Assembly: GCF_019649055.1 (NCBI RefSeq)
Contig: NW_026570383.1
Coordinates: 62,001 to 126,000 of the forward strand
Direction: 5' to 3'
Source of the DNA: Paramacrobiotus metropolitanus
Taxonomy: Eukaryota; Tardigrada; Eutardigrada; Parachela; Macrobiotidae
Length of the DNA: 64,000 bases
The notes under the pieces are model-generated. The model was not told the DNA's origin and did not search any database. It worked only from the letters and a program-made list of their open reading frames with translations. How positions within the stretch are numbered: the first letter of the stretch is position 1; each line of letters begins with the position of its first letter. A program made the translations under genes and the position numbers. This document shows positions 8,432 through 45,224 of this stretch, in pieces.

Positions 8432-8879
8432 TGTTAGAGGCACGACAGCCTGCGTGATAGATACGCCACTTTGCGTATGCGTATCACTGCACACATGCTG
8501 ATTCGCCCTCTCTTGTACGTACGTGAGTGGCTGCACTGCACTCTCCGCCTATGCGGATACACCGCGGGCGCACTCACTGAGCATACTTGCTCTCTCGCTC
8601 CTCTCTCTCGCTGTATGACTCAGCGTATATTCGCTCGCGTTGGATACGAGTCCAGTCTGCGCACTCACATTCCATGTGTCTGGACAGCGTGACGCCGTTG
8701 CCGCCAGCACATTTCTTTCTCTACATTTCTTTCTCTAGAACTAGCTCGCAGCAACTTGACTTGCTGATTTCTGCCAGACACTGGCCTTTGTTGTGCTTTT
8801 CCCCGCATTCACGCGGCATTTGCTCCACTTTATTTGTACAATAAAGTCACCTGTGAGCTCTCTGTGCTTGCCTGTCACA
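8432..8879 (+). repeat. 5' LTR (448 bp)
   Basis: It begins TGTTAG and ends GTCACA (TG...CA). It matches 28898-29348 base for base in my reading, except one cluster near 8722-8735 where the 3' LTR has 3 extra bases and a few substitutions. An AATAAA polyadenylation signal is at 8840-8845. A TGACTCA (AP-1-like) word at 8616 next to GTATAT at 8625 could be part of the promoter; this is inference only. Small ORFs inside the LTR are not considered real. Confidence 0.93.
8840..8845 (+). promoter_or_regulatory. AATAAA polyadenylation signal in 5' LTR
   Basis: This is a perfect AATAAA 34 bases before the LTR end, repeated at the same position in the 3' LTR. It would define the R/U5 region of the LTR. 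Confidence 0.7.
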
Positions 8880-10142: not shown

Positions 10143-10808
10143 ATGTCGAACCCGAAGGAAAACGAATACGCCCGAAAGTTCAACACGGACTATTCGCGGC
10201 GCCTGACCTCCAACGCGCCGTATGCACTACGGCACTCCGGCCAGGATAGAAGTCAGCCATCGTCAACAGACTCGACGAAGTCGGCGGAGGCAAGGGAGAA
10301 GCGCAACGAGCGGATCCTCCTCGCCGATTCCAACCCAACGTCGGACGACAGCTTCGAGGACGCTCACGACAAGACGTTCCTTGAGCCCAGAGCTGGCTTA
10401 GCAGCCCCGTCCCACCCGACCGGGGGGGAATCGGAGAAGCTGCAGGCTGAGACCACATTGTCTCATGCCGAGGCGGAACACCCACATGGTGTACCGTCCT
10501 CTACGGACTCAACAGAAGGACTTCAACTGAGCTCACAGAAAGCTCAGGAGTCGGTAACGACTACGAAAGTCACCGACGCTGGACGCAAATCACCCAACCA
10601 GACGGATGAAGCGAAGAGGTCGACCTCGCCCAACTCGGGTAGAGCGACTTCACCGACCTTGAAGGTCGGAGAGAAGCAACCGATAACGGAAAGCGGTCAA
10701 GTCCAACCGACCACAGAAGTCGGTAGGGCTTCACCAACCTCTAAGGACGGTCAACGGAAACCAACCTCGGAGGTCGGTTATTCTCAACCGGAGGTCGGAC
10801 CTCTCTGA
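10143..10808 (+). CDS. gag: Gag-like N-terminal region, disordered, with PTTEVG repeats
   Basis: The likely start is the ATG at 10143 in the context GACAACAATGTCG; an upstream in-frame TTG at 10119 is less likely. The product is Ser/Thr/Glu-rich and low complexity, without a recognised fold in this part, and ends in a run of six-residue repeats of the type PTTEVG / PTSEVG. The frame stops at 10806-10808, but the same repeat continues immediately in the -1 frame from about 10799 (TTQVGTEVG...) into the next ORF, so the stop is best read as a one-base frame change, not the natural end. The repeats come from CGACCACAGAAGTCGG-like hairpin DNA. The role would be the matrix/N-terminal part of a virus-like particle protein; this is inferred from position only. 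Confidence 0.6.
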   Translation: MSNPKENEYARKFNTDYSRRLTSNAPYALRHSGQDRSQPSSTDSTKSAEAREKRNERILLADSNPTSDDSFEDAHDKTFLEPRAGLAAPSHPTGGESEKLQAETTLSHAEAEHPHGVPSSTDSTEGLQLSSQKAQESVTTTKVTDAGRKSPNQTDEAKRSTSPNSGRATSPTLKVGEKQPITESGQVQPTTEVGRASPTSKDGQRKPTSEVGYSQPEVGPL

Positions 10809-11059
10809 CAACACAAGTCGGAACTGAGGTCGGACGACCCCAGCAATCACCAACCAAGGAAGTTGGCCAAATCCAACCGACGACAGAAGTCGGAAGGATT
10901 TCACCGACCAAGGAGGTTGGTCAACAGAAGCCGCCTACTGAGGTCGGACTCCACCCGACAACACAAGTCGGAACTGAGGTCGGACAACTTCCACCGACCT
11001 CAAGGGTCGGACAACAGCAAGTCGGTAAAGTCCAACCGACCTCCCTGGAACGGAACCCA

Positions 11060-14216: not shown

Positions 14217-14723
14217 TCTGGCTATAACCAAAACCCAAACCAGGGATACTCCGCATACGGGCAGAATCCGACACAAGGATTCGGCGGCGGAGGCTATGGT
14301 CGCGGGAAGGGACGTGGCGGCGGAAATCGCGGTCGCGGTAACTTCCCCAACCGCGGAGGCGGGAATCAACAGAATAATCGACCTCCCCAAGCACAACAGA
14401 GTGCTCGGCAATTTACGACTTACGCGGATAAGATGGAACAACTATTCCTCCAATGGACGCTGGCGGACAGCTTTTCTTGCAACTTCTGCAAGTTCAACAA
14501 CCATGCTCAGGCACGCTGCGCGTTCATCGGCACTCGGGTGCAGGACAACCCGAATCGCCGCTGGTACGGCGGCTCAGGAAGTGGGTCGGGCGGAAATCGC
14601 AGATACGTGGAGGTCAACAGGATCTCCGGAACAGCGGCAACAGTTACCGCCACACCAGCCTTTGGCGCACCGTCACCCAACAATGGGCCGGCTCGGGAAA
14701 CCTCGAAACGCCTAGGTCGATGA
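14214..14723 (+). CDS. gag: Gag nucleocapsid region: RGG box and CCHC zinc knuckle
   Basis: Read in the frame that includes the ATG at 14433, this segment begins with Tyr/Asn/Gln repeats, continues with a Gly/Arg-rich box (GYGRGKGRGGGNRGRG) and then has CNFCKFNNHAQARC, an exact C-x2-C-x4-H-x4-C retroviral zinc knuckle (about 14481-14522). These are the expected RNA-binding elements of a nucleocapsid. The frame ends at TGA 14721. There is no ATG at its beginning: it is entered from the capsid frame by a -1 change at about 14209-14217. Confidence 0.65.
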   Translation, partial: NSGYNQNPNQGYSAYGQNPTQGFGGGGYGRGKGRGGGNRGRGNFPNRGGGNQQNNRPPQAQQSARQFTTYADKMEQLFLQWTLADSFSCNFCKFNNHAQARCAFIGTRVQDNPNRRWYGGSGSGSGGNRRYVEVNRISGTAATVTATPAFGAPSPNNGPARETSKRLGR

Positions 14724-15916: not shown

Positions 15917-18169
15917 ATGCAACCTCTTGGCCATTACACTCGGATACTTGGCGTAGGCGGACAAGTTGCCTTCACCGTAACCCACTGTTGCACCGTACCG
16001 GTAACGCTACAGGGATTTACGAGCCATCATACATTCCACGTTCAACCGAACAACGCGGATATCCCAGTGTTACTTGGATGTGATTACCTTCATTCCAAGT
16101 TCACCTTCGTGTTAACGCCCATTCCTAATCCGGAACGACCTGGAGGAATGACGGTAGTGCAGTCTATCCCGATACCAGAGGCATCGGGCACGGTAACAAC
16201 TGAAGCAAGGATAAGTCGGCTTGGCCAGCCGACGGAATCTCCGCCCAGCATCTGTCGTGACTGCCGGGATACTAACCGGACTCTGATCGAGGAAATGCAG
16301 CTGCACAACGCCATCGAAGCGTACGAAGAAAGGATACGAACTGGAAAACTACGTCCGAAGAAACGTATACTGAAGACGGTAGTAAAGTCTATCCCGATAC
16401 CAGAGGCATCCGCAACGGAAGCGGATGCCATCTTAGAAGTCCAACAAAAGTACCGGACTTGGTTTACGGGAATACAACACTTTCTCGACCGACGGACGTT
16501 GGAGATGTTGGCCACTCTGCAACAGAACGGAGCGGTGACTACGGACCAGATACAGGAAGCACAACGGACATGCGAACCTGTATTAGCTCTCGCCGAAGAC
16601 ATCGACGATGAAGCTTGGGAATGGGAAGACGAACGAGTCCCAATTCACCGGCAGTACATGGAATACGGACTTCCAGTACCACGCCCTCTGGAGATACCCT
16701 GCCAAGAACTAGGCGGAGCACTCTTCAGTTACATGCGACAAGTACAGTTGTACGGAGAATCGACCACAACTGCGTTTTGGAAACGGTACGGCGAGGACAC
16801 CTCAATAACAAGGAAGATCCCCGACCCGTTACCGCCAATCACGGAACACTTTCCGAAGGAAGTCAAATTCGTCAACGACCTGAAGAAGCCAACTGAGCAC
16901 ACGCAAATTGGCGAAACTGACCGACCTGATCGCTGCATAATTTGCAACGATAATATTGATGGAGTCGTCCGGACGCTGAAGACTCACCATGACTTGACTT
17001 GGATTGACGGCAGACCGTCGTCACCAGCCCCTCCGCAACCAGAACGGAAGGTAAACTCAAGCCGGAAGACCAAGTCGGTAGTTAACCAATGGCTGAGCAA
17101 CATAAGCTCACAGCCATCCGACCTGGAGAAACAGGACGAAGAGAGTCGACCGACCCAACCGAAGGAAACGGCCGACCAGGGTGCACCGACCACGGAAGTC
17201 GGAGAAGGTGGTGCGCCACCGACCACAGAAGTCGGACATGGCAACACACCTGACGCTAACCCTGAAGACGAGCAAGAATCCGAGGAATATAACTCGGACG
17301 TCTCGGACGTACAAAGTTCGAGCGATTCACCGGACACAGACTCCGATAACCAACCTTCGGAAGAATCCGAGGAAGAGGATGATGATGAGGAATTCGACCC
17401 GTCAGTACGAAACTGCAGGTCAGATAAACCGCGGAATGACGACTCGGACGACTCATCCGAGGAGGACGAAGAACCGACCTACGACGTCCGGCTGACAAAA
17501 GCCTTGCGGTCCGTCATCCATACTGAATTCATAGTCGACCTTCCCCCGGAACAAACCGGACAGGAAAAGCCAGTCGATGTCGAACAACAAGCGGAACTTG
17601 AACAACTTCAAATTTTACGGGAATTTGGAGGAGGCCAACCGGAGGAACACGACCTCCGACCTCCAACCATAGTAGTCCAGCAGCTGTCAACCGAACAACC
17701 GACCTCGGTTAACTTAACTGACCAACAGAAGTCGGAGCAGCCGCGCCCACAGAAGGTCCGGATTGCAAAAGTTAACTCGATTACGGAGTTGAACTTGGGC
17801 AACAAGCACCCACAAGTTCATCATCTAGCACTGGACCCGTTCATCGACTCGAAGCCGCTAGACCGACAGGTGGTCTTTAACAGCGAGCGAGTCTCTCTCC
17901 CACCTTACTCAACGTGTTCTATCAAGGTACGGACGGCCAAACCAATGGACCCGATGAGACCCATCTACTTCTACACTTTACGGCGGAAGCACCGACCTAT
18001 CCGACCGATAGAAGCAAAAATTGAGATCCGACCTCAGATAGACACGGCCTGGATAAACATCCAGAACATGACTCACCTACCGCGAATATTGAAGAAAGGC
18101 ATAAAACTCGGCCATATGCAATACAGCGACATGTTCGAACCGGACATCGACAACCAATACGTCGAATAG
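15917..18169 (+). CDS. pol: Pol: C-terminal half of protease, long linker, acidic region
   Basis: This frame is the same as that of 15038-15889, resuming after its TAA. Residues 1-60 complete the retropepsin: RILGVGG flap-side strand and the VLLGCDYL motif (equivalent to the usual ILGxDFL). Then follows a roughly 350-residue linker containing two copies of SIPIPEAS (16162 and 16387) and a Cys/His cluster CIICN...KTHHD (about 16940-16990). Residues about 420-530 include two PTTEVG units and a strongly acidic Asp/Glu/Ser tract. The end has a beta-rich block that resembles the domain before RT in the next frame. It ends at TAG 18167-18169, with the frame open again directly after. Confidence 0.65.
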   Translation: MQPLGHYTRILGVGGQVAFTVTHCCTVPVTLQGFTSHHTFHVQPNNADIPVLLGCDYLHSKFTFVLTPIPNPERPGGMTVVQSIPIPEASGTVTTEARISRLGQPTESPPSICRDCRDTNRTLIEEMQLHNAIEAYEERIRTGKLRPKKRILKTVVKSIPIPEASATEADAILEVQQKYRTWFTGIQHFLDRRTLEMLATLQQNGAVTTDQIQEAQRTCEPVLALAEDIDDEAWEWEDERVPIHRQYMEYGLPVPRPLEIPCQELGGALFSYMRQVQLYGESTTTAFWKRYGEDTSITRKIPDPLPPITEHFPKEVKFVNDLKKPTEHTQIGETDRPDRCIICNDNIDGVVRTLKTHHDLTWIDGRPSSPAPPQPERKVNSSRKTKSVVNQWLSNISSQPSDLEKQDEESRPTQPKETADQGAPTTEVGEGGAPPTTEVGHGNTPDANPEDEQESEEYNSDVSDVQSSSDSPDTDSDNQPSEESEEEDDDEEFDPSVRNCRSDKPRNDDSDDSSEEDEEPTYDVRLTKALRSVIHTEFIVDLPPEQTGQEKPVDVEQQAELEQLQILREFGGGQPEEHDLRPPTIVVQQLSTEQPTSVNLTDQQKSEQPRPQKVRIAKVNSITELNLGNKHPQVHHLALDPFIDSKPLDRQVVFNSERVSLPPYSTCSIKVRTAKPMDPMRPIYFYTLRRKHRPIRPIEAKIEIRPQIDTAWINIQNMTHLPRILKKGIKLGHMQYSDMFEPDIDNQYVE

Positions 18170-18274: not shown

Positions 18275-21200
18275 GTGAAACTCCTACCTCGGGCGATAAC
18301 CCAAGTGCACGTCGTAATGGATGTTGCAGTAGCCACCGGACAGAAACTCATGTACCTTGGTGGATCCGACCCCCAACGAGACGGAGTCGAAATGATGGAT
18401 GGCGTAACTAAACATGATGGGAGACGATTTACCATCATGGTAGCCAACCACACTCACCGTGAGGTCACCTTACGAAAAGGTGCCCCCATGGGTCGAGTCG
18501 AACCGTTCCAAATGATGACGGACGACCAGAGAGTTGAAGAAGCGAGAATACGCTCAGCTCAGGTAGAGGAAGAAGACGCGGAATCCCAGGAAGAGCGACG
18601 AAGAATCATCGACTCCATGAACTTCGGTAAGAACTTAACCGATGAGCAACTTGCCCAACTCAAGGCAGTTGCCTGGGAGTACCGAACCGTCTTCCCGACC
18701 TCGAAGAAACCATACGGAGATGTCAAAGGTGTAACACACACCATCGACGTCCAAGGTGCACAGCCGATTAAGATGAACCCCACCAGAACAAGCTGGAAAG
18801 GAAGGGAGTTCATCCAAAAACACGTGCAGGAAATGCTCGACCAAGGAGTCATCGAACCTTCATCGGCTGCATGGAGCTTCCCCGTCGTCTTAGCCGCGAA
18901 ACGGAACGGAGACGGCACGGTTGGAACTCGTTTCTGCATCAACTACATAAAGTTGAATGCAGTAACAAAGAAGAATAATTACCCGTTACCGAACCCGGAC
19001 GAGCTACTGGACCAGTGCGCCGGAATGGAGTACTACGGTAAAGTAGATTGTCAGTCCGGATTTTGGCAAATTCCCATGGATGAAAATTCCAAAGACTATA
19101 CCACCTTCGTAACACCGGAGGGGATGTGGAGATTTAACCGTATGCCATTTGGAGTCTGCAACGGACCAGCGACCTTCCAGATGCATATGGATAAGATCAC
19201 GGCATCAGCCCGGAAGAAAGGCGTGTTCGCATACATTGACGACATCATCTTCTTCGGTAAAACTTTCGAAGATTTCGTCGAGGCTTTCCGAGCGACCCTC
19301 GAATGCCTCAGAGATGCCGGATTTACCATTAAGCCCTCCAAATGCGAGGTCGGAACGGATAAAATGCTGTTCCTCGGACACGTCCTTAGCAAAGACGGAG
19401 TCCAAACCGACGATGAAAAAGTCGCAGCCATAGCTCAACATGACTACCCGAAGACGGAACGCCAACTGAGGTCGTTCCTGGGATTGGCTAACTACTACCG
19501 TAAGTTCATCCGAGGATACGCCCAGAAGACATCGAAGATGTACGAGCTCCTACGGAAGGACCAAAACATCAAAAAGGATTGGACGGAGGCCCACACGGCC
19601 GAGTTCAACGAAATTAAGAAGGCGTTAACAGAAGCGCCGGTACTGGCAAAGTTCGACCCGACGAAAGAAACCGTCATTGAATGTGACGCAAGCGGAGCCG
19701 GACTTGGCGCGGTGTTATCCCAGGACGGACATCCGATCGCCTACGCCAGCAGAGTCTTACACGGACCTGAACTCAACTATGGAGTCACAGAATGGGAATG
19801 TTTGGCCGTGGTATGGGCAGTGCAAAAATTTAAGCACTACATCGACCATGGACCTTTCACCGTACAAACGGATCATCGAGCATTGCAGAATCTGCTCAGA
19901 TGCGAGTCAAACCGACCTGGCATCAACCCTCGACTAACACGATGGGCACTGGCTCTACAAGGACGGGACATAACCATCAAGTATAAGCCAGGAGTTTTCT
20001 GCGACAATGCGGACGCCTTGTCGAGGTGGCCACTCGAACGGAGTGATGACAAAGATCCACACGAAGAGTTGGATCAGGTGCCTAACTTCGAGGACTTTAA
20101 GGACGAAATTAAAGTCTGCACCATACGGACCTTACGACGTCTAAAGGATAATGCATACAAGAAAAAGAAGAGGGATGAGAAGGAACCACCGGAAATTCCA
20201 CTTCCACCACCTCTTCCCGGATGTAAAGTCATTTCGGACTGGGATGACCTAAGTACCACAGAAGTACGGGTCGTCAACGTACCAGCTCCGAAGACGTCGG
20301 ACCTCAACATATTGGAACCGACCATCCGGACCGCAAACACAGCGGAAGAGTCGGACGAGTTGAGCCCACATGGCGAGACACTCGTACCGCCCGTGTCAAC
20401 AAACGCGGAATTGCGCAAAGCACAGCTGCGAGACCCGCACTTACGGAAAATCATCGATGAACTGGAGAACCTGGATAAACTCGACTACAAGTCGAAGTAC
20501 ACCGAGCACTACCAGATGGCTCAAGGACTCCTGTATCGATTGAAGGTAATAAACGACAAGCTGGAACGATGCTTCGTCGTACCTCTCATCATGCGAACCA
20601 ACATCATACGTTCGCTACATGATGGGAAAACCGGAAACCACTTCGGACGCGATAAAACCGTAGAAGCATTGAAGTTGCGCTACTACTGGGAACGGATGTC
20701 AACCGACGTGTTCGAATACATTCGGAAATGCCGACAGTGCATTTTGGCCAACAAGGTCCGACGTCCCCCACCGGGTAAACTCCAGAAGATGGAGGTTGGT
20801 GAAGCTTGGTATCGCATCTACGCGGACTTCAAGGGACCTTTACCTCGAACGCAGACGAAAGGATACCAATACATCGCAGTGGTAACCGACCAGCTGACGA
20901 AGTTCACCATCGCCCGGGCAACCAAAACGAACACCGCGAAGGAATTTGAAAAGTTCTTTGTGGAAGATGTCCTGCTGAGGTACGGAATGCCAACCTTTAT
21001 CCACTCGGACCGAGGGACGCACTTTACGGCGAAAACATTCGCTAAAGTTGCGAGGATTTTCGGCATCCAACATACGCTTGGAACAGCCTATCATCCGGAA
21101 GGTCAAGGACAAGTCAAACGGCAAATGCAGACGATATGGGACGGAATACGAAAGTTCTGCAATATAAAGGACGGACACCGTTGGCACAGAGCCGTACCAT

Positions 21201-22408
21201 ATGTCGTCTGCGGGATGAACAGAGCAGTCCATGCCTCGACCAAATTTTCACCTTACCATATGCTGTATGGTCGGGAAATGACCATGCCACAGGACTTAGT
21301 GGCCGGAACAAACGCACCGGAACAGTATACGGACAAGGAACATTACATCAGGCGGATAAAAGAACGACTTCAGATGGCCCACGAAATTGCGCGCATCAAC
21401 ATCGATGAAGCCTTTGAACGGAGCGCCGAAGTTTATAATAAGAAGAAGTCATCACCGACCTTCAAACCACGGGACAAGGTAACGGTGGAATTTCCAACTA
21501 AGGACCCCGCCAGGATGGAACGATACGACGGAGAGTGGACGGTCATCAGTTACGTTGGCCCGAACAACCTGCTACTCCGAAGTGAGGACGGACGTGAAGA
21601 CACCGTAGCCGTCGACCGAGTGAAACACTTCCCAGCCGACGCACGTCGACCAGTAACTCGGTCATCTGGTCAAAAGAAGCCGGATAATGACCTGGGAACC
21701 GACCCCACAGAAGGGAAGGTGACCAGTAAGTCGACCAAAAAGCCTGAAGTAACCATCGAGCAACCGGAGAAATCGAACTTAACTGACCAACCCGAAGTAA
21801 CGGTTAAGAAAAGAGGTCGAGGTCGACCTCGGAAGAAACCGCCGATGGACTTCGAGACACCAGCCCTGCAGGAATTGCAGAAGCAAAATGTGATACCGGA
21901 TGAACCAGCTGAACCGACCTCGGAGAAGCCTAAGGAGTCGGACAACAAGTCCGTAGAACCGGTTCAGCCATCCAACCAACCCACGGAAGAATCCAAGAGG
22001 TCGGTGACTAAACCGGCAAGAAAGAAGAAGTCGGATAAGACGACCGACCAGGCGGCACCGACCACAGAAGTCGAAGTGGCCGACCCGGCAGTCGCACCGA
22101 CGAAGCCAAAACGGACTTACAAGAAAAGGACGGTTAAATCAACCGACCCGGCGGCACCGACCACGGAAGTCGAAGTGACCGACCAGGAGGTCGGACCGCC
22201 CAAGCCGAAACGGAAGATCGGAACGGTTAAGAAACCGAAGCTGACAGCACAACAGGTGCTGGAGGAAACTGAAGTCGCTGAAGACGAAGCTCACAAGGAG
22301 ATCCTCGATAGAATTTCGGAAGGACGAGCGGACTCGGAGAAACCAGCCAAAACAGCAAAATCAAAGACACCTAAACAAGCAGTCACAACAGAACAGACTC
22401 AGTCATAG
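18275..22408 (+). CDS. pol: Pol: reverse transcriptase, RNase H, integrase
   Basis: The frame is open from TAG 18167; GTG at 18275 is only the first start-like codon. Residues about 150-345 are RT: motif A VDCQSGFWQI with Asp258, PFGVCNGPATFQ, and YIDD with Asp322/323. The usual CVDYRKLN box reads CINYIKLN (Asn223, Ile225). RNase H follows with Asp471, Glu508 and Asp533. Integrase has the HHCC finger His782, His789, Cys819, Cys822, then core Asp851 and Asp912, but Lys948 stands where the catalytic Glu should be, exactly 35 residues after Asp912. A degenerate GPY/F-like module precedes a tail with an AT-hook (GRGRPRKKP, near residue 1182) and Lys-rich repeats including PTTEVEV. The integrase is probably inactive; RT and RNase H look intact. 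Confidence 0.9.
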   Translation: MKLLPRAITQVHVVMDVAVATGQKLMYLGGSDPQRDGVEMMDGVTKHDGRRFTIMVANHTHREVTLRKGAPMGRVEPFQMMTDDQRVEEARIRSAQVEEEDAESQEERRRIIDSMNFGKNLTDEQLAQLKAVAWEYRTVFPTSKKPYGDVKGVTHTIDVQGAQPIKMNPTRTSWKGREFIQKHVQEMLDQGVIEPSSAAWSFPVVLAAKRNGDGTVGTRFCINYIKLNAVTKKNNYPLPNPDELLDQCAGMEYYGKVDCQSGFWQIPMDENSKDYTTFVTPEGMWRFNRMPFGVCNGPATFQMHMDKITASARKKGVFAYIDDIIFFGKTFEDFVEAFRATLECLRDAGFTIKPSKCEVGTDKMLFLGHVLSKDGVQTDDEKVAAIAQHDYPKTERQLRSFLGLANYYRKFIRGYAQKTSKMYELLRKDQNIKKDWTEAHTAEFNEIKKALTEAPVLAKFDPTKETVIECDASGAGLGAVLSQDGHPIAYASRVLHGPELNYGVTEWECLAVVWAVQKFKHYIDHGPFTVQTDHRALQNLLRCESNRPGINPRLTRWALALQGRDITIKYKPGVFCDNADALSRWPLERSDDKDPHEELDQVPNFEDFKDEIKVCTIRTLRRLKDNAYKKKKRDEKEPPEIPLPPPLPGCKVISDWDDLSTTEVRVVNVPAPKTSDLNILEPTIRTANTAEESDELSPHGETLVPPVSTNAELRKAQLRDPHLRKIIDELENLDKLDYKSKYTEHYQMAQGLLYRLKVINDKLERCFVVPLIMRTNIIRSLHDGKTGNHFGRDKTVEALKLRYYWERMSTDVFEYIRKCRQCILANKVRRPPPGKLQKMEVGEAWYRIYADFKGPLPRTQTKGYQYIAVVTDQLTKFTIARATKTNTAKEFEKFFVEDVLLRYGMPTFIHSDRGTHFTAKTFAKVARIFGIQHTLGTAYHPEGQGQVKRQMQTIWDGIRKFCNIKDGHRWHRAVPYVVCGMNRAVHASTKFSPYHMLYGREMTMPQDLVAGTNAPEQYTDKEHYIRRIKERLQMAHEIARINIDEAFERSAEVYNKKKSSPTFKPRDKVTVEFPTKDPARMERYDGEWTVISYVGPNNLLLRSEDGREDTVAVDRVKHFPADARRPVTRSSGQKKPDNDLGTDPTEGKVTSKSTKKPEVTIEQPEKSNLTDQPEVTVKKRGRGRPRKKPPMDFETPALQELQKQNVIPDEPAEPTSEKPKESDNKSVEPVQPSNQPTEESKRSVTKPARKKKSDKTTDQAAPTTEVEVADPAVAPTKPKRTYKKRTVKSTDPAAPTTEVEVTDQEVGPPKPKRKIGTVKKPKLTAQQVLEETEVAEDEAHKEILDRISEGRADSEKPAKTAKSKTPKQAVTTEQTQS

Positions 22409-22587: not shown

Positions 22588-23442
22588 ATGTCGGGCCGAC
22601 AACGCAACGACCCACCTTCTAGCGGATCCAACAGCGGACGCAGTGGTAGCGGCTCGAACCGGTCGCACCCTTATTCGCAACCATACTCGTCTCACCATCG
22701 CTCGACCTCGCGATCGGATAATTCGCGGTCGGCAACGAACACACCGCTGCCGCAGCCGCAAACGGAGGCATACACGGCGGACTGCCGACATTGCATAGAG
22801 AATTCCACTCCACAGGGCAACAGACTCCCATGCGCGGACTGCATCATTTCCTTCTCGGATGAACATACCCCACAAACCGGACGTCGTGACGCGATGCAAG
22901 CAGCGGCGTTGTACATAAACGTCGTCGCTGGGAACATCAGCGCATACCGACGTTTAGCCCGCAGCGAACGCCTGATTAACCAGCTACGAGCCTACGAACA
23001 GGATCATTTGTCGGAAATCCAACGCAACCGCGCTTCCGACCCCGGATGGACTAACACAGTACCACCGACCTTGACGCATCGACTGCTGGAATATCGTCAA
23101 CAACAGGACCTGCGACGCCAGGAGGAGGACCGTGCAAAACTAAAGGCAGTCAACGAAAGAATTGCCACAATGAAGGTCCATCCACCACCAACGAGGCATG
23201 AACCAGAAATCACTGTTCGGTTACAGCAGCCCACAGAAGGCCGCACCGACTCGGAACAGGTGATTCACGACGTTCGAGAAGTGATAGTCGGAGACATTCA
23301 CCGACCTCTTCAGTCCGCATCAATCCAAATGATGATGCAACAGGACGACGGAACTATGAAAATGGTCACTCTTTACCCTGCAACGGCGGAGCAGATGGCA
23401 ACGATCCCACAGAAGGTCGTTCCAGTGGTCACACAAACTTAG
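22588..23442 (+). CDS. Third ORF, first part: Ser-rich head and CX2C-CX2C motif, unrecognised
   Basis: The start is ATG 22588 in GACAACAATGTCG, identical over 13 bases to the context of the gag start at 10143. The N-terminal 55 residues are Ser/Arg/Asn-rich and disordered. Then CRHCIENSTPQGNRLPCADC gives C-x2-C-x12-C-x2-C, which could bind zinc. Residues about 90-200 look helical and charged. The frame stops at TAG 23440-23442, but continues without further stop for 486 codons. The ORF lies at the place of env in retroviruses and some Gypsy elements, but has no signal peptide or membrane segment, so an envelope role is not supported. I do not recognise the family. Confidence 0.6.
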   Translation: MSGRQRNDPPSSGSNSGRSGSGSNRSHPYSQPYSSHHRSTSRSDNSRSATNTPLPQPQTEAYTADCRHCIENSTPQGNRLPCADCIISFSDEHTPQTGRRDAMQAAALYINVVAGNISAYRRLARSERLINQLRAYEQDHLSEIQRNRASDPGWTNTVPPTLTHRLLEYRQQQDLRRQEEDRAKLKAVNERIATMKVHPPPTRHEPEITVRLQQPTEGRTDSEQVIHDVREVIVGDIHRPLQSASIQMMMQQDDGTMKMVTLYPATAEQMATIPQKVVPVVTQT

Positions 23443-24900
23443 CCATCTGTTCCCCAGCAGATTCCTCAACCTGGATCTTCGGCACAACCAGTTGCCGCGT
23501 CGTCGACTCAACAGCAGCGCCGACATGCCAAACCATTGGCCGGACATGACCTTCGACATAGGCTCGGACATGACGCACGACACAGAATCGAGGAACGACG
23601 AGCCTCTGCCGGACACGGCAATAGTGAAGCAACCCGACCTTCACCTGGTAAGCGGTCAAGTCCGGAGAAGACGAGCATGGGACTGGTCGTCGACTCAACC
23701 AGTAAGTCGAAACGGAACTTCGTCCCACCTGAACACCAACCAGAACCGGAAGCCCACATGGCGGAACCGGCAGACAAACCCGAAGAAATGGAGGTGGATG
23801 TGGCAAATCAGATGGCCTCGATGCCAACAGTGCAAGTTCCGAGCCAAGACGACCCTCGTTACGACAACGCCCGACGACAGGGAGTTGAGGTCGTTATGCC
23901 ACATCCGACCGAACGGACGAACTACATCATGAATACCTTGGGATATGAGGAACGACACCGACCACACATTTGGCGGATGGTAGAAAACCTACGTCAGTTC
24001 CTCATTCGATCCGGATTTCAAACCAGATTCCAACTGAACAACTGGATGGGCGAGTTCAACATGAACGACCACCCTAACGTCGATCACCCGATCAATCGAG
24101 CAAACGCTTTGCCTTTGGTGCATGACCCGGCACTGTTGGACGTACCCCTGTCCACACCGGAGAGGACGAGCTTAAGCCAACTCGGACCTCAGGAGTATTC
24201 CCGCGATCAACTGGAGAGCGTGGCTCAGTTTGTCATCACCGATGCCCACCCGGCCTTCATTATCGCAGCGGCTCGAGCGGCCCTGGACTTACTGCAGTAC
24301 TTGCCGGAAGAAGAACCAGGACCAGAAGATCGAAACGCAACCATCTTGCGGTACGTCTTCGCAGCAAGGCTAGGCAATTGCTTTTGCCACTACACGCTGT
24401 GGGGAGCACGTCGCACGGCACATATCCCACCAGAACTGGATACGATCGTCGCACAACTTGGTTCACCCATGCGAAGTATCATCTTGGCAGTTTGGTTACG
24501 CGACCTCCTCTACATACAGGAACGGCACGCGGCCAGATACGCCTTCCGCAAGGACTTCAAAGATCCAGACGACGATGCGGCCGAATTCGTGAAGTGGTAC
24601 CGCGAAGAAAAAGCGTTACCTAGCGGATTCACCTCTAGACCATACGGAGAAGGGATGTCGGACGACTTGGCACCCGGCGCAGTACCTAACGCGCATAAGC
24701 TCCGTAGGAAGGTCCAGAAAGCCAAGAAGGCGCGGGCGGAACAACCCGGCCAGGAAGACACCCCACAACAAGATGGGCAACCACCAGCGACATGTAAACC
24801 TGACGTCTTCCGGCGCCTCGGTCGACCACCACCTAAATCTGACGATGACGAGGAAGATTACTTCGGCGGAGACCCGCCGATCTCAGTCCCTCTGGGATAA
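23443..24900 (+). CDS. Third ORF, second part after isolated TAG, unrecognised
   Basis: This is the same frame as 22588-23442, resumed directly after TAG 23440; the first start-like codon is TTG 23536, and no ATG stands at the boundary. It begins with a Pro/Gln/Ser-rich linker, then a region of about 300 residues that looks globular and helical (MVENLRQFLIRSGFQTRFQL, VITDAHPAFIIAAARAALDL, SIILAVWLRDLLYIQE). The end is basic (KLRRKVQKAKKARAE), followed by an acidic tail DDDEEDYFGG. No membrane segment is convincing. Its size and conservation of frame argue for a real protein of the element. The function is unknown; a nucleic-acid-binding or particle-associated accessory protein is possible but unproven. 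Confidence 0.6.
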   Translation, partial: PSVPQQIPQPGSSAQPVAASSTQQQRRHAKPLAGHDLRHRLGHDARHRIEERRASAGHGNSEATRPSPGKRSSPEKTSMGLVVDSTSKSKRNFVPPEHQPEPEAHMAEPADKPEEMEVDVANQMASMPTVQVPSQDDPRYDNARRQGVEVVMPHPTERTNYIMNTLGYEERHRPHIWRMVENLRQFLIRSGFQTRFQLNNWMGEFNMNDHPNVDHPINRANALPLVHDPALLDVPLSTPERTSLSQLGPQEYSRDQLESVAQFVITDAHPAFIIAAARAALDLLQYLPEEEPGPEDRNATILRYVFAARLGNCFCHYTLWGARRTAHIPPELDTIVAQLGSPMRSIILAVWLRDLLYIQERHAARYAFRKDFKDPDDDAAEFVKWYREEKALPSGFTSRPYGEGMSDDLAPGAVPNAHKLRRKVQKAKKARAEQPGQEDTPQQDGQPPATCKPDVFRRLGRPPPKSDDDEEDYFGGDPPISVPLG

Positions 24901-25414
24901 CAGGTCCCCGCATAAGGAACCTGCGGCCCCACTTCAACAGTAAGGAAGGGACATCGAGCTGAGAAACAGCGAAGTCGAGAACCGACCTGGCGGAGAACCT
25001 GCCCAGCTGAGAAACAGCAGCGTCGAGAAACGACATGGAAAACATGGAACGGATACTTTTCTTTTTACGGATCCTAAAGCAGACGTGAACCACGAATAAG
25101 CCAGAAGCGCCAACCACATAAGTTGGCCGGATTCTTTGGTCGGACCCGGAAACGTGTGGTCAGACCTGGGTAGTTCGGTTCTTTCACCGTACCGTTACGT
25201 CCTCCAAGGAATCCCCTGGAAAGAACTGGGCAACCGACCTCAGTTCCCCAGCATGGCATTAGCAGATCGCGAACGAGATCAGAACCACATCTGCTACACC
25301 GGAGCCAACAGACGCCCCGGCTTGCTAACATAGCATATCGTGAACCACGTGCTGCTACCGAAGAAGATTACTCCGGCTAACCGACTCTGGAAAACAGACC
25401 GAGAGGATTACGCT

Positions 25415-25456
25415 AACATGGTGTCGAAAACGTTGTCACGTTCTCGACACCATGTT
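25415..25456 (+). repeat. Long hairpin 1 (13-bp perfect arms)
   Basis: AACATGGTGTCGA at 25415-25427 pairs perfectly with TCGACACCATGTT at 25444-25456, with a 16-base loop. The downstream text is GGCACCCGTGG. It is the counterpart of the hairpin at 26053. Confidence 0.85.
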
Positions 25457-26052
25457 CGCCTGGCACCCGTGGCCGACTTTGGGACCGGGTAACCGACCAG
25501 TAACTTTCATCACCGCAGACAGTGGTATCCTCATCGGCCCGCAACGTCACATGGTTCGGAATTGACCACAGAAGTCAAAACCGACCTGTTATGACATGAC
25601 GCATTGGATTAACCGAAGGCAGGAACGAAGAACCGGACTCCCGCCCAGAGACCTAACTTCGCAAACCGCGACTTCAACTGTGCTCCGTTACCTCAGTCAA
25701 CCACAGAAGTTGACCGTTCCCGAGGTAATTAAAGGAAGTGACGCAGACCGTGTCACAAAACCACGATCCACTACCTTCGTTGACCACGGAAGTCAGCCAA
25801 TTTTAAGGTAGAACTTGGACTTTCCCTAATCACGATTCGGATAACTTAGCCGACCACAGAAGTCGGTGAAGTTTCAACTTTACATCCGAAGGATAAGCCA
25901 TACAGAAGGATATATCCAATACAGACCGTGTTGGTTAACCACGATCTACTACCTCAGTTGACCACGGAAGTCAACCATCCCGGAGGTAGATGATCGGAAT
26001 CAAGACACTCCGGCAACCGGACTCCGGAGTAGAAACCAGCGAGGATTCCGCT

Positions 26053-26097
26053 AGCATGGCCCGGAACACAGCACTGCGGTGTGTTCAGGACCATGCT
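26053..26097 (+). repeat. Long hairpin 2, counterpart of hairpin 1
   Basis: AGCATGG (26053-26059) pairs with CCATGCT (26091-26097), and AACACA (26065-26070) with TGTGTT (26080-26085). It lies in the same context as hairpin 1: preceded by GAGGATT(A/C)CGCT and followed shortly by GGCACCC. The inner arm sequence differs but still pairs. Confidence 0.8.
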
Positions 26098-26641
26098 TGC
26101 CAAGGCACCCACGGTTAACTCCGAGAAACGGACGGCCGATAGGATAACAAGTCCCTAAATAACATGGAATCAATCGGACCGCAACGGAACGGACAGTGTC
26201 AACTATGACCCGCTACCTAGAATCGACCACAGAAGTCGATTTGCCAACGGTAGCCGACCTTCGAAACATTGACCAACCGACGTCGACCCGACGGAAGCAC
26301 ACGGAAATTATAAACGGGATGGCTTTATCGCAGTCTTCACTGACCACAGAAGTCGGTAAAGGTGACCGCAAACCGCGACACCTGACTACGATTTTAGTCT
26401 GGACGGATTCTCCGTTTGAACCCGGATCTACAGGCTCTCAACCAGGAACCTATACCTGGAGTCCAACCGCAGTCTCCCCGGCGGATATCGGATAAACCAA
26501 CCGATTCACCGGTGACCACGACTACGCGCGGCTTGACCGTGCTGCCATTACCTGAAGAGGAACAGCGACGGTGATTTGGCTACTGACGTACCAACGACTC
26601 CGCCGCGACCTGCTTCCCCATGTCTTAATGGAACATCCTAG

Positions 26642-26669
26642 GCAAACCGTGTTAGAACACACGGCTTGC
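26642..26669 (+). repeat. Long hairpin 3
   Basis: GCAAACCGTGTT pairs with AACACACGGCTTGC with small mismatches and a minimal loop. It is again followed by CACCC. It probably belongs to the same hairpin class as those at 25415 and 26053. Confidence 0.6.
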
Positions 26670-28897
26670 ACCCCCATACAGATCCCTACGGACGTGTGAT
26701 GTCTTTCCCCAACAGAAGTGGCAAGGCGTCACAGGTTCGCGGAACCGAACGAAGAAACTCCAAACCAAGGAAGTGAAGTGATCTGATTTTACCTCAGAAG
26801 TGCATGCTGCATGGGGATGGGAACGGGCAGTCTGACATAAGTCGGGGCCCGAGGCACAACGCTGCCAAGGCGCGAGAATTGTACGCCAGTTTGAAACCAA
26901 AGAGTCTGTCTTGTGGAGTGGGACCACAGAAGTCCCTTGATGCCACAAGCGACCTGGATTGCATGCCGAATGGCCAACAGACGCCATGGGACTGCCGAAC
27001 TTGACGGAATTCGGACCCGTCCAGAGGCAAAACCATCGACCCGAACCAGGGCATGTTAGAGGCATGAAAGAGAATCGCTTCAAACAAACTTCGCAGAGAT
27101 CGGATGAGTGCCCAGACGACCTCTTGACGGACGCAACCGACCTGGAAGAAGAATCACCGACCTTGGGTTGGATAACATTATGTCCGACCTCTGGTCGGAT
27201 AAAATGGAAACCGACAACAGGTCGGTTATGAGGATGATTCCACCGAAATAGACTTGTACGGCTCCACTTTTGAGCCTGTATACCGTAACTCACCTCGGTT
27301 GAACACGGAATTACGGAATCACCGACCTCAGGTTGGATAACGTTGTAACCGACCTCGGGTCGGACATGAGAAGTAACCGACAACAGGTCGGCGGATGGAG
27401 ACGCCATCCAAGATCTTCACGGAAAACGACTTCCGGACAAAGGAATCGATCTTAATCGACCTGGGACTTGGAGTAACCGACCTCCAGTCGGATAACATTA
27501 TCACCGACCTCAGTTCGGAGAACCGGTCCAACCGACCACAGAAGTCGGTTAGGAACGCCGGATCGCTCGGTTCCGCTCGGAACACCAGCGGATTAGCCGG
27601 GATACGACCTTTGAACGGACCAGTCACGTGGTAACCGACCTCAGGTCGTATAACATTACCACCGACCACGGGTTGGATAACATCATACCCGACCTCAGGT
27701 CGGACATCAGGAGTCACCGATAACAGGTCGGTGAAGGTCGACTAAACTGAAGATTGGAACTGGAAACGACCTCGGAATGGACGAATTCGACCTAACAGGA
27801 CTTGTTTGGCCCCACATGGGCCTAAATAACACGAGTTACCGCGGTCGACCATGGAGGTGCGTTATCACCGACCTCAGGTCGGATAACATTACAACCGACC
27901 TCAGGTCGGAAACCCATCCTCGGCCGACAGAAGGTCGGATGAACTACTATTGGATGGAGGAGCAACAAATCCCGACCGGACCTTCGAGCCAGTTCGCCTC
28001 GGAAAAGTCTTAACCAGGCTCGTGGTAGCAGATTTAACGGTTTTAAACCGACCACATTCCATCGGCATTACCACTTGGCGACCACGGAAGTTGCACGACA
28101 CAAGTACGGTTTTGTCCGACTTGACTTTTGGAATTCGGGACTTAGCCGAATTCCCTTGCCGCCGGTTAACTCGCCGGTAGGCCGACCTTGGTCCGATGAC
28201 CTTGGTCTATTCCCCCTAATTAGAGAGGATGCTTCGGCATTCGCAACAGCGACAGTGCCTCTCCCTCCGGAACGGATGAATACGAGTCGGACGTAAGTGT
28301 CAGCCGTGCTTACCCGACCTCGGAAGAACTTACCGGTTACGTTGGGTAACCCGGGAACCGACACCCCGGACCTGATACACCGAACTGCATTTAGACAGGA
28401 GACCCCGTGGAAACCCAAGACCCGTGGACGTCATCCTAGTCGGAATAAGCCCCCCGGACAGATCTCTTTTTAGTATTTTTTGTACATTTTCTAACAAATG
28501 GAATTGTATTTTACTTAGAATCTCTAACCAGATCTGTTTTGTATTTACTTTTTGCTCACTGGAATTGTGATTAAACTTTATTACTTTTTACTTCGCGCTG
28601 TTTAACCGTCATTACTTTTCTTCTACTTTCTCCGCAAGCCAACAGAAGCAAGATGCCTGCCAACAGAAGCGAAACCGGTCCAACAACGAACCCCGAGCGG
28701 CTTCCAGATTTTCGGCCGTGAGTTGCTTGCCTCTCATGGATCTGGAGGTGAAGGATGGGACGGTCAACAGACACTGGACTCCCATTGGAAGAGGACGCGT
28801 ACCGGCGACCCCACATGGGTCGACCGGAGAGGTGCGACGCTGGTGCGGTACTGAGTCTGAGCATCCTCGCAGGAGCTCGGATTCCCGCCCAGAGGCA

Positions 28898-29348
28898 TGT
28901 TAGAGGCACGACAGCCTGCGTGATAGATACGCCACTTTGCGTATGCGTATCACTGCACACATGCTGATTCGCCCTCTCTTGTACGTACGTGAGTGGCTGC
29001 ACTGCACTCTCCGCCTATGCGGATACACCGCGGGCGCACTCACTGAGCATACTTGCTCTCTCGCTCCTCTCTCTCGCTGTATGACTCAGCGTATATTCGC
29101 TCGCGTTGGATACGAGTCCAGTCTGCGCACTCACATTCCATGTGTCTGGACAGCGTGACGCCGTTGCCGCCAGCACATTTCTTTCTCTACATTTCATTAC
29201 GCTCTAGAACTAGCTCGCAGCAACTTGACTTGCTGATTTCTGCCAGACACTGGCCTTTGTTGTGCTTTTCCCCGCATTCACGCGGCATTTGCTCCACTTT
29301 ATTTGTACAATAAAGTCACCTGTGAGCTCTCTGTGCTTGCCTGTCACA
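28898..29348 (+). repeat. 3' LTR (451 bp)
   Basis: It starts TGTTAGAGG, ends CCTGTCACA, and is followed by GGTT. It is essentially identical to the 5' LTR apart from CATTTCATTACGCTCT against CATTTCTTTCTCT near 29190-29203. It carries the same AATAAA 34 bases before its end. Confidence 0.93.
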
Positions 29349-29540
29349 GGTTATATTTTTATTTTGTGGATTACTAAGCTAATCTCTAATAAGGTGTGGG
29401 AGCATGTTGCGGTGATTTGGTCTCGCATAGAATTAAAGGAAACCTCGTGGATTATAATTTTGTCAGGCGCCTGGCACTGGCTCATATTGCAAAATTGCCT
29501 GTACGTATCTACGATTACAAATTTAATTAAGTTCATGTTT
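29349..29540 (+). repeat. Displaced right end of repeat copy B
   Basis: The sequence from GGTTATATTTTTATTTTGTG onward matches 3575-3740 of copy A, including CTAATAAG, GTGATTT and the CGTGGATTATA stretch. In copy A the two sides are contiguous, which identifies this as the other half of the interrupted copy. Confidence 0.85.
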
Positions 29541-39180: not shown

Positions 39181-41760
39181 GGCTCAGACTTTTCTCAGTG
39201 GTGGTGGTGCGTGAGAAAATGCCGCTGAGCTAAACGAAGATTCATGCATATTTGTCCCTGCGTCCCAGCTGCTCGCCGAGTTGTACAGTTTCCACGCGAA
39301 AACGAAGAATAAATATTGCAATTAATACTTTAAATCATTGTCAACTTATCACTGAGGAGCTTGTCGCTGATCCAAGGTTACAGGATAATTTACAATTTGA
39401 AGGCAAAACGTTTCGCCGGGAACCCGCTGACCTTGAATTATGTATTAATCGACCTCTCGGTGGTGCGCTCAATTGAGATGCTGAACGTAGACAACTGACG
39501 CGAATCCGCTGAGGACAACGCCCTAATCCGAACTGCTGGTTCTATGTGAGGATCTCAACTGCAACAAGAAATAAAAAATCTGACGCAAATGCGTACAAGC
39601 CATATCAGAAAGCGAAAACATGCACACCGCCTGCTTACATGAATACATCTTCTGCGTAGTGAGCGAGGAATCTTACCATCTCCGAATCTCCGTGTAGATA
39701 CTTTTCACGGGACGCTTATCGCGGAGCGGCACGGTCTTTCACGCTTCCGCGCCGCGGTAAGATGGCATGAATTCCGCTGCTACATGCTGGGACTCACAGC
39801 ACGTGGAGTGGCGTTTGTGCAGACAGGAGGGTCAAGGTCACGGAGCTGTCTCCCCAACTTTGGGAGTCAGGTGCTTGTCGACCACTTACTGGCTGTTGAT
39901 ACCATGTGGTTTCGGGGAATATATGAGAAAGTAACGTTCGCAAAACGGCCCAAGGTAGTGGGTATTTACGAATCCGGTATCTTTTACGTTCACTATAGGC
40001 ACCTGGCGAAGGAACGTTTGGGTGTTGTGTGCTGTAGAAATCGTATCGACCGCGAGTACTCGTAGCATTTCGCACAAAAATAATAGACAAATACATTATG
40101 GACGATTCAGTTGACTGATTATCACGGGACATAGGGAATAACATTATCACGTATCTACGAAAAAAATATTTAACGAGGTACCTGGTAGCCGAATGTGCTG
40201 GCACTGATGCGAAGCTACTTCACGGCAGTCGCAAGGTTTCCGCCGAAAACTCGTTGACTGCAGTCCAGCCACCCGTGTGTGCAACGCATGTAGATACACC
40301 CAAGAAGATAACGCCGTAGTCCACACTGCTGGTTTTTTATAAGAAACTCACGGATCTTGAACACGCGAATTAGTTAGTGTAACCGCTCGTCAGTCGTCCA
40401 GGACATTCGTTCAGATGCGGTAGCAACTCGCGCAGTTTTTTTGGAGAGCACAACACCGCCATCCTCGGTGACGCATTTGCATTTTTCGATGCATTTGCAC
40501 TGAAACAGCAAAAGGAAGAACTGCGAATCAATAAAATTACACATCATACGCGTTTACAAATGCCGTCACGATTTACCTCCTGCACATTTCTGTCTTCAGG
40601 AAAGATGAAAATGGAGCTGTTATAGCAGTACCCAATACACATGGCCATCCATAATCATCCGTAGTATTCCATAAAATATTACTTAATTTGTCCGGGCCAT
40701 AACACGCTTGAAGTATGTACCGAATACGCAAATGTCACTGTGCAGGGTAAACCAGGTAACAATAAAACATGCAACTTTGTAAAGCAAGCGTATACCCCAG
40801 TTTGTGAAATATTTCACGGAATAACGTGCATATTACAGCATTGTTAAGTATAAACCAGAAATAATGAAAATAAATATAAAAAAGAAAGAGGTGATAAATT
40901 CACAGGAAAACTGATTTAACTAATGAAACCACAACCATCTGGTGATCGTGAAAAAAGATAATACGAAGCAGAAATCGTGTAACCGTTATACAGGTTGGCT
41001 TTTTCATCCGCTGGCAGCGCAGGCAAGCTATAAACGAACCATGTGAACGATTAGTCCAAACGAATCGCTTCCCCATCGATAAAGTTTTTCGCTGTGAACA
41101 ACAAACACAGAACGATCATTACTGTGCAGTATTCACCAACCACGATAACGGGGGTAGGAAACCCAACTCAGGACTGGGAATAGGCGCATTCATACCGTCC
41201 GTCTTGTCCAGAAACTTATCCAAACTTAGCTGTCAGACATGAAAAGCTCGACAATCGTGTTCTTCAGAAAACGATCCTTTCCAAATGGTGAAACATCCTG
41301 ACGCTTTCCGTAACAGCCATCAAAACTGCAACTTCGCATCGAACCTGAAGTTGGCTTAACAGTTTGATCGTTATAAACGCAGTGATTCTTTGCAACGAAT
41401 ACAGGTACTGCTGTGCAAGGTGACAGACAAAAATTATGGATCAGAAAGCCAAGAGATAACTTTTCCCGCAGAGCTGTTCAAGTTGCAACAAAACTGAAAG
41501 TGTTGAGCTTGTTGAAAGACTTGGAATATTTCTCTATGGAGCACGCAAAATGCACAGTTTGCAGGCACAGCCATATCTTACTGCAGGATAGCTGATAGCA
41601 CCATGATAACCATTTGGAACGTGGAAGAGATAACAAATCCAAGGTAAACGGCTTGACAGATTGGAAGTTTAGCGAGGCTTGTCACGCTTGTGATTGTGGA
41701 GAACCTCAGGGACAGATGTCGCGTGCAGATTGTACGAGTAATACCAGTTCATAGTCTCCA

Positions 41761-43340
41761 CTACACTTATCTTGGATAAGCACATACTCATCAGTCATCG
41801 AAGCCATCAACGTGTTCATAATTCATTTATACTCCTACATTCTCCCCACTCCTTAAGCGCAAATCGAAATTCGCATCGCTTTCGACTGCATGGACATTCA
41901 GGACTGAAAGGATTTTTCCTCTCATGCACGATAAGAACTAAGAAGCACTGCCAACACAGATACAGACAGATCCGGTGCACATTTTGCTGTGCAGGGCTGC
42001 AGAATGCAGACTTGGTAGTACTCGTACACTTCAAAGACGTTCAAGTTGGTCACCTTTAAGCAACGATCGACGCACTTCCGCGCTAAGTGGTACAGAATGA
42101 ATGGACATTCCTTCTTAAAGAAGGAGTAACTGTAAAGAGCATCTTTTATGACATAAAATATAAAATTAATATTATATGTATATAAATCTACGTCTGGAGC
42201 CAAAGACATGATTACAACAGCAAAACCGCTCATTTTTTTAGTCTGTGCGCTTATGCTTTACTAGCAATAAGATAATGTAATGGGAACAATCCATGACCAT
42301 GACAGCAAAGAGGAAGTGTTTCTGTTAGAAAATTTTGTTATTGGTGCTTAGTTTGTCTCCGAAATATGATACTTATTAAAGGTATTACGCACAGATAATG
42401 TAACCAGGGTCTACAATACGAATATTTCTGCTATGTAAATGCTAGTTAAAACTTACGACATACAGCAGATCATCAGAAATGTACGTACATAAAGGTAAGT
42501 AGTTGATATTTATCGTTAAGTATACCTACTATCTATATATATGATAGAAATGATAGAAAAGTATATATGTAGTAGTAGTAGATACTAGATATGTATGTTG
42601 TATAACAGAGAAGTTTATTAACAATAAGTAGATATGTGCAATACAGCCCAGATTAAAGCGCATTTTCACTTTTACAAGTCATATTGGGCATACAAACAAT
42701 AATTTATTTTAAGAAAAGTTGTCTTCATACAGTTGTCGTCATACCTGTGGAAGAGAGAAGGATAATTACAAAGTCACGTCACTAAGATGTTCAGCTCTTA
42801 TGGGAAACCAAGAATCGTGAAAACACGAAGAGTGTGTGCGTTATAAGTTGACACAAAAACTCAGCTGTACGAAAATCAAGCAGTCAAACGTAAGCACTAC
42901 GCTATGTAGCCGAACGAGTAATATCTAATTACTCGCTTGCCTTCGTACACTTCGTAATTCTCTGCCAGTATGTGCAGATTCTTAAATTGTACGTGCATTT
43001 TAACGGTATTACAGCGTACGAACTGAACAGAGGGTTCCCTTGGACTAGCCTCCCGCGCATTTAAATGTAATTAACCCATTGTCGGTTAAAAGTTCACGGT
43101 ATCGGTACAAGTTATAAAGTCCCTGTGAAGTGCTATGCCATGTTTCAAGTTGATCATGAAGAATTTATTGGTTTGCTTATCGTTCAGACGTTTGAACATC
43201 AACATTATAAAACAAAGTAAACAGCGTTAAAACCATCAGAACGCGGTACGGTTGAAGTCACAGACAGCGCATTCCACCGCTGTATTTCAATGCTAATACG
43301 CTGTAGCAGAAACTCGTAAGAGCGTCGTTCTCCCGTAGCA
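41761..43340. other. No gene recognised
   Basis: AT-rich DNA with a TATATA/TAGTAG simple stretch at 42520-42600. ORFs up to about 100 codons on both strands have no recognisable features. Confidence 0.5.
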
Positions 43341-43344
43341 TCCT

Positions 43345-44539: not shown

Positions 44540-44639
44540 AATTTTCTTTGTGGTTTCGCGATCTTCCAGTGTGTTTCAAGTTTAAAGTTCAACCGTAAGT
44601 CGTTCCTGTCTAAATTGGTCGGTAGACACCTTACTAAAT

Positions 44640-45220: not shown

Positions 45221-45224
45221 TCTA

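Follow-up and report, generated by a model that had tools for sequence, protein, structure and literature searches.

Short hairpins with a constant loop and variable stems in Ty3/gypsy-type retrotransposons of a tardigrade: candidate packaging signals with family-specific loops

A retrotransposon in the genome of the tardigrade Paramacrobiotus metropolitanus carries many short hairpins in which the loop is constant and the arms differ from site to site, which raises the question of whether these structures are selected and, if so, what reads them. The stretch analysed, called the window here, comprises 64,000 nucleotides (NCBI RefSeq assembly GCF_019649055.1, contig NW_026570383.1, positions 62,001 to 126,000 of the forward strand). 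The hairpins sit in a Ty3/gypsy-type long terminal repeat (LTR) retrotransposon of 20.9 kb at window positions 8432-29348, referred to as family A. An earlier note had described ten hairpins with the loop CAC(A/G)GAA (CACRGAA) between 25562 and 28094, and had left the choice between a selected structure and a process that copies loop and pairing but not arm sequence. All ten were recovered, nine with perfect stems of 3-7 bp and the tenth (28083) through wobble pairing, and the four arm pairs quoted as examples were all present (GTCAAC/GTTGAC, CCGAC/GTCGG, AATCGAC/GTCGATT and GGGAC/GTCCC). Selection on RNA hairpins that are read by their loop is strongly supported by the comparisons below. With a probability of roughly 0.6, the hairpins would be dispersed packaging signals read by a protein of the element, most likely through the CCHC zinc knuckle of Gag.

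The interval described at first proved too narrow. CACRGAA occurs 35 times on the sense strand of the element, between 10013 and 28083, and only once, unpaired, on the opposite strand. Paired sites reach beyond the 3′ part into the gag and pol region, with hairpins at 10.5-28.1 kb (Table 1). Perfect stems of 4-7 Watson-Crick pairs close 15 of the 35 sites, and stems of at least 3 pairs close 19. Within 25562-28094 there are 13 CACRGAA on the + strand: nine with perfect Watson-Crick arms of 3-7 bp (25567, 25702, 25785, 25855, 25963, 26228, 26345, 26925 and 27537), the one at 28083, where 2 bp are followed by pairing that continues through wobble, and three with arms of only 0-2 bp (26300, 27304 and 27418). 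The pairs adjacent to the loop are often GAC/GTC in family A, yet the arms vary by site, as in CTGAGCT/AGCTCAG, GTAC/GTAC, TTGAC/GTCAA and GGGAC/GTCCC, and several inner hairpins stand on a longer outer stem that varies as well (TACCTC/GAGGTA, GCTACC/GGTAGC, CTTGTGG/CCACAAG).

Shuffled and unrelated sequence, the comparison singled out in the earlier note, did not reach this density of pairing. When the 3′ arms were reshuffled among the 35 sites 2000 times, stems of at least 4 bp numbered 2.9 on average and 9 at most, against 15 observed. Anagrams of CACAGAA carried such stems at 4 of 369 sites, compared with 11 of 20 for CACAGAA itself, which had the lowest hairpin p value of all 7-mers (1.3e-18; about 9400 7-mers tested). 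Outside the element 2 of 14 CACRGAA sites had stems of at least 4 bp, a high fraction of a small number. Genome-wide, GACCACRGAAGTC was found 422 times against 9 for the reversed control, many of the 422 being copies by descent. No Rfam family matched 8432-29351 at the gathering score, and a pattern search for relatives elsewhere returned 3 matches in viral contigs and 15 in genome contigs, none of them confirmed. The element folded better than shuffles in 120-base windows (regional mean z -2.2, -1.8, -1.2, -1.5, -0.5 and -1.6; flank -0.2).

The loop was also better conserved than its surroundings among copies of family A in the 170-Mb genome used for comparison. With 92 homeodomain matches and none for chlorophyll-binding proteins, this genome is that of an animal; a cuticle-collagen search returned no match, and neither did its control. 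Over ten sites, with 235 rows kept and 15 gappy rows left out, loop letters other than the fourth base differed from the window in 33 of 1405 cases (2.4%) against 394 of 4187 in the flanks (9.4%), a rate of change four times lower, in rows that are not all independent (L014/L017, L015/L024, L010/L023 and L019/L029 are parts of one copy each). The fourth loop base (A/G) differed in 32 of 232 cases, and 62 of 1410 letters differed among the three arm bases nearest the loop. At 25702 the arms read GTCAAC/GTTGAC, GTCGAC/GTCGAC or GTTGAC/GTCAAC across copies; rows of the last kind may instead show the adjacent unit at 25963, brought into register by a deletion in those copies.

Related families, found by a pol search of the same genome, were represented by pieces of B (C37), B′ (C58:550-555k), C (C58:919-942k), D (C50) and E (C51, C23); L044 of family B, consisting of LTR and leader outside the hairpin region, was left out. 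The architecture recurred with other loops: CACRGAA in A, ACACA/ACAAA in B, AACAGAA in B′, CAATA in both C and D and, weakly, WAC in E. In a scan without a preset loop, 7 of 12 element pieces beat all 100 shuffles, as opposed to none of 3 flank pieces, for which 3, 20 and 22 of 100 shuffles were as good by loop. No shuffle among 100 was as good as the best loop in the 5′ pieces of C and D (CAATA, 7 of 14 and 9 of 21), in both pieces of B (ACACA, 6 of 26 and 4 of 15) or in the 1.3-kb piece of B′ (AACAGAA, 3 of 4), and CACAGAA was best in two of the three thirds of A. With 2000 arm shuffles each, the 5′ pieces exceeded every shuffle for CAATA in C (7 of 14) and D (9 of 21) and, in B, for ACACA (6 of 26) and ACAAA (5 of 29). 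Among A-D, loops foreign to a family had stems of at least 4 bp in just two combinations, 2 of 33 for ACAMA in D and 1 of 8 for CACRGAA in B, and reverse-complement loops had none in A-D; in the 5′ piece of E, CAAYA and ACAMA each had two. Such stems closed 24 of 648 WAC triloops in E. Five E hairpins (four WAC triloops and one CAAC) aligned to a second copy, 91% identical, all kept their loops, with four stems unchanged and one having lost its innermost pair.

Compensatory change was seen at homologous sites between families. The 5′ parts of C and D are 78% identical where aligned, and there the CAATA loop stays and the arms compensate: GCTCC/GGAGC against GCCCC/GGGGC, GGCTC/GAGCC against TAGCTC/GAGCTA, CTTGGCC/GGCCAAG against TGACC/GGTCA and, in the 3′ part, GGCC/GGCC against GACC/GGTC. 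In the 5′ parts changed pairs were compensated in 4 of 7 CAAYA cases (C to D) and 6 of 10 (D to C), compared with 22 of 272 and 19 of 258 in other hairpins (7-8%; Fisher p 0.002 and 6e-5, for two directions that overlap). With stems of at least 5 bp the counts were 4 of 7 and 4 of 6 for CAAYA and 15 of 133 and 7 of 109 for other hairpins. Between A and B the stem was kept and the loop switched at several homologous sites, for example from ATCCC-CACATAA-GGGAT in A to ATCTT-CACACAG-AAGAT in B, and from GCCAAC-CACATAA-GTTGGC to GCCGACT-ACACA-AGTCGGC. Two A sites in pol keep a near-A loop in B (TACAGAA and CACGGAA), and A hairpins mapped on B were compensated in 3 of 6 and 1 of 1 cases. Because loops lie on one strand (35 against 1), are conserved and sit on compensating stems, and differ between families, the first of the two readings in the earlier note, a selected structure, is supported, with the sense RNA as the target of selection.

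What reads the loops is suggested by their composition. They are rich in A and C (CACRGAA, ACAMA, CAATA, WAC) and unable to pair with one another, so that a protein reader is likelier than kissing-loop dimerisation, which was rejected for want of complementary loops. A reader that differs between families within one genome would most simply be encoded by the element. In the proposed mechanism, the sense RNA of each family would bear many short hairpins whose loop is the family-wide recognition motif, the stem having the sole duty of presenting it. A protein of the element would bind the loops, and Gag, through a single CCHC knuckle, is the most likely candidate. Dispersed along a genomic RNA of great length, the hairpins may then serve as signals for its packaging and perhaps its trafficking, and a family-specific loop would let Gag select its own RNA over that of close relatives in the same genome.

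A CCHC knuckle was found at the end of Gag in each family, giving six sequences whose residues differ between loop classes: NFCKFNNHAQARCAF in A, RHCMFNNHDESRCIY in B, RHCMFNNHDGARCGY in B′, GHCLWGNHNQASCGY in D and NHCLWGNHPTEGCGY in E. In the C copy the knuckle is interrupted by a stop, and C and D, which have the same loop, share NHNQASCGYA after the knuckle glycine. No Pfam zinc-knuckle match was obtained in the gag open reading frames (ORFs) submitted, and a second match to the knuckle pattern in A (at about 18.7 kb) was dropped, as it is not in the pol frame. The knuckle differences are consistent with Gag as the reader, without amounting to proof. A wider proposal is tentative, and we would put it at somewhat below even odds: the loop may act as an RNA barcode throughout this clade of giant Ty3/gypsy elements, co-evolving with the Gag knuckle and preventing cross-packaging between close relatives in one genome, with loop changes spreading to many sites as families diverge.

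Another factor encoded by the element might read the loops instead, for instance a protein of RNA export or stability encoded in the long ORFs next to pol, comparable to Rev with the Rev response element (RRE) of HIV-1 or to CERV of Cer1, in which an element-encoded protein acts on its own unspliced RNA (PMC10309623). Family-specific loops would suit any reader of this origin, the element has long ORFs without a Pfam match outside pol that could encode a second RNA-binding factor, and export of the genomic RNA of Cer1, an LTR retrotransposon of C. elegans, requires CERV (PMC10309623). No RNA-binding mark was found in these ORFs, however, and in HIV the RRE occupies a single compact region (PMC4488727), whereas the sites described here run from gag to the 3′ region. 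We regard such a factor as unlikely. A host RNA-binding protein or silencing factor is less probable still: host factors too bind stem-loops, but one host protein would not require a different loop for each family within one genome.

Pairing might also be kept without selection if reverse transcriptase, which switches templates readily, used one arm as template for the other where inverted repeats are imperfect (quasipalindrome correction), a form of the copying process envisaged in the earlier note. Compensatory changes would result, but hairpins with any loop should be affected, and this was not seen in the 5′ stems of at least 5 bp in C and D; the constant loop, its conservation and its differences between families would also be left unexplained. 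Template switching is already disfavoured and is given very little weight. It is equally improbable that the hairpins arise incidentally from a repeated peptide, (P)TTEV, or from a DNA repeat that has dispersed: the loop does lie in one frame in 8 of the 10 hairpins (stem of at least 3 bp) within A reading frames, coding Thr-Glu and mostly read as TTEV or TE, but the ten paired sites in the 3′ region fall outside every listed sense ORF of at least 100 aa, there is no relation between arms like CTGAGCT/AGCTCAG, GTAC/GTAC and GGGAC/GTCCC, and sister families use other loops. A mobile mini-hairpin resembling a miniature inverted-repeat transposable element was rejected, arms not being shared between sites and families even though GAC/GTC beside the loop is common in A.

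The nearest known parallel to packaging signals of this kind is found in single-stranded RNA viruses. In MS2 and others, many stem-loops throughout the genome share a loop motif and are proposed to bind the coat protein as the particle assembles, and Gag-like proteins, it is suggested, might use a similar assembly (PMC6281560). The hairpins described here are likewise many and spread, with a shared loop motif and variable paired stems; unlike the viral ones, they occur in an LTR retrotransposon of at least 20.9 kb, with a near-exact loop, loops that differ between families of one genome, and a candidate protein partner. The retroviral Psi is compact and lies at the 5′ end, whereas here the sites are numerous and extend from gag into the 3′ region, and a compact 5′-leader element of Psi type was rejected given the spread of CACRGAA hairpins over 10.5-28.1 kb. 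The idea of a sense-RNA structure read by CCHC knuckles of Gag is shared with retroviral Psi (PMC7599994). Yeast Ty3 belongs, like the present element, to Ty3/gypsy (Metaviridae) and has a single Gag CCHC finger; its nucleocapsid domain is required for packaging of genomic RNA and the zinc finger is critical (PMC4974528). The word "hairpin" is absent from the main text of that Ty3 paper, and "stem-loop" from the main text of the Cer1 paper PMC10309623. A literature search, with most subscription papers outside its reach, showed, among the papers listed (at most 20 per query), none on repeated constant-loop hairpins in LTR retrotransposons.

Several results weigh against hairpins that serve as packaging signals read by their loop. 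The inner RNA of Ty3 (nt 429-4979) is dispensable when the proteins are supplied in trans (PMC4974528), so that dispersed signals are not general. The correspondence of knuckle and loop is drawn from six sequences, and the like would be seen with any protein that evolves fast. In the scan without a preset loop, the 5′ third of A gave AACAA as best, a result matched by 8 of 100 shuffles; in C and D the 3′ pieces did not stand out (5 and 11 of 100), and E was marginal (AAC triloop, 1 of 100; 3′ piece, 4 of 100). In the arm shuffles, 3′ pieces equalled the maximum without exceeding it, at ACACA 4 and 4 and ACAAA 2 and 2 in B, and at CAATA 2 and 2, twice, in C and D. For their 3′ parts, the comparison of C with D gave compensation in 1 of 5 and 1 of 4 cases (stems of at least 5 bp, 0 of 3 and 0 of 2). 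B hairpins mapped on A were compensated in 3 of 24 and 2 of 12 cases, no more than others, a low count perhaps owed to poor alignment there and to differences in loop length. Plain hairpin number exceeded that of shuffles in 2 of 3 flank pieces (39352-49352 and 1-8400), where no loop is constant; an excess of plain hairpins is thus not specific to the element. The antisense strand folded nearly as well as the sense strand (z -2.0, -1.0, -1.4, -0.9, -0.5 and -1.4), and folding energy alone therefore does not tell which strand is used. In the reading frames of A, the Thr-Glu coding described above is a further difficulty, since codon constraint may add to the hairpins there.

Covariation at single sites, the check proposed in the earlier note, belongs with these points. 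Our own R-scape-like test, with a tree-based null, was applied to 11 family A pieces, 27150-27930 and the 5′ half being left out, and gave no significant canonical pair in the CACRGAA stems; each piece yielded 0-3 pairs at E<0.5, and three were canonical, all outside those stems. Matching stretches of family A copies are about 77-97% identical, and the null result is taken as one of low power. In a first comparison of hairpins, double changes in copies left MACRGAA stems paired in 16 cells, wobble-paired in 1 and unpaired in 1, a poor separation from 128 control hairpins (115 paired, 5 wobble, 58 unpaired), and some of the 16 may stem from the neighbouring unit aligned at 25702. Since covariation within family A is only weakly informative, it is sister families and paralogous sites that provide the support for selected hairpins.

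The means by which Gag recognises the RNA of its own element is a long-standing question, and the existence of dispersed packaging signals outside small RNA viruses is debated. In the present case the sequence by itself reveals a candidate signal, and nature has supplied replicates: a single genome holds at least four loop codes, or five if the weak family E is counted, and a separate Gag knuckle goes with each. From the loop switches between families one would learn how a code shared by RNA and protein can be altered simultaneously at numerous sites.

The assignment of the element to Ty3/gypsy rests on the LTR pair with a target-site duplication (GGTT at 8428-8431 and 29349-29352), the order reverse transcriptase - RNase H - integrase and the CCHC knuckle in Gag; both LTRs are about 450 bp long with TG...CA ends. 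Ten other copies were compared in size between window positions 22600 and 22753. Seven (C33, C3, C23, C280, C188, C126 and C6) have 8-14 kb more in this interval, the C5 copy near 1.08 Mb has 6.8 kb more, C142 has 4.2 kb more and C42 has no extra sequence, and the window copy thus lacks a large segment downstream of pol that most of these copies have. Long ORFs without a Pfam match lie downstream of pol at window positions 22588-24900 and also in L034 and L035. One derivative, L031 (C5:534700-540000), joins window 10475-11089, the hairpin-rich 5′ part, to 25120-28640. About 380 bases separate the two matches, which leaves no room for gag-pol, and both hairpin parts are kept, as expected of cis signals, in this single copy. 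L031 is perhaps a non-autonomous form that keeps them.

Table 1. Hairpins and other features of the family A element, in window coordinates
Feature	Positions	Strand	Remarks
CTGAGCT-CACAGAA-AGCTCAG	10527..10547	+	gag region; family B counterpart GAGCT-CACACAG-AGCTC
ACCGAC-CACAGAA-GTCGGT	10706..10724	+	
CCGAC-CACGGAA-GTCGG	17186..17202	+	
CCGAC-CACAGAA-GTCGG	17219..17235	+	
GTAC-CACAGAA-GTAC	20253..20267	+	in pol
CGAC-CACAGAA-GTCG	22059..22073	+	in pol
CGAC-CACGGAA-GTCG	22158..22172	+	in pol
TTGAC-CACAGAA-GTCAA	25562..25578	+	
GTCAAC-CACAGAA-GTTGAC	25696..25714	+	outer stem TACCTC/GAGGTA
TGAC-CACGGAA-GTCA	25781..25795	+	6 bp with wobble, plus outer stem
CCGAC-CACAGAA-GTCGG	25850..25866	+	
GTTGAC-CACGGAA-GTCAAC	25957..25975	+	outer stem CTACCTC/GAGGTAG
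AATCGAC-CACAGAA-GTCGATT	26221..26241	+	outer stem GCTACC/GGTAGC
GAC-CACAGAA-GTC	26342..26354	+	6 bp with wobble
GGGAC-CACAGAA-GTCCC	26920..26936	+	outer stem CTTGTGG/CCACAAG
AACCGAC-CACAGAA-GTCGGTT	27530..27550	+	
GCGAC-CACGGAA-GTTGC	28078..28094	+	5 bp with wobble; 12 of 16 copies have GTCGC as the right arm
3′ array of related short-loop mini-hairpins	27151..27938	+	CCGACC-TCA-GGTCGG, CCGAC-AACAG-GTCGG
Gag CCHC zinc knuckle CNFCKFNNHAQARC	14478..14519	+	pattern CX2CX4HX4C; candidate loop reader, predicted role
pol ORF (reverse transcriptase, RNase H, integrase)	18275..22408	+	Pfam RVT_1, RT_RNaseH, Integrase_H2C2, rve
5′ LTR	8432..8879	+	ends read (TG...CA); blastn self-match
3′ LTR	28898..29348	+	98.9% identical to 5′ LTR (blastn self-match); ends read

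Elsewhere in the window, positions 53060-53745 match their own reverse complement with 86% identity, and 60816-64000 is a tandem satellite with a period of 41 bp (71 overlapping repeat-search matches).

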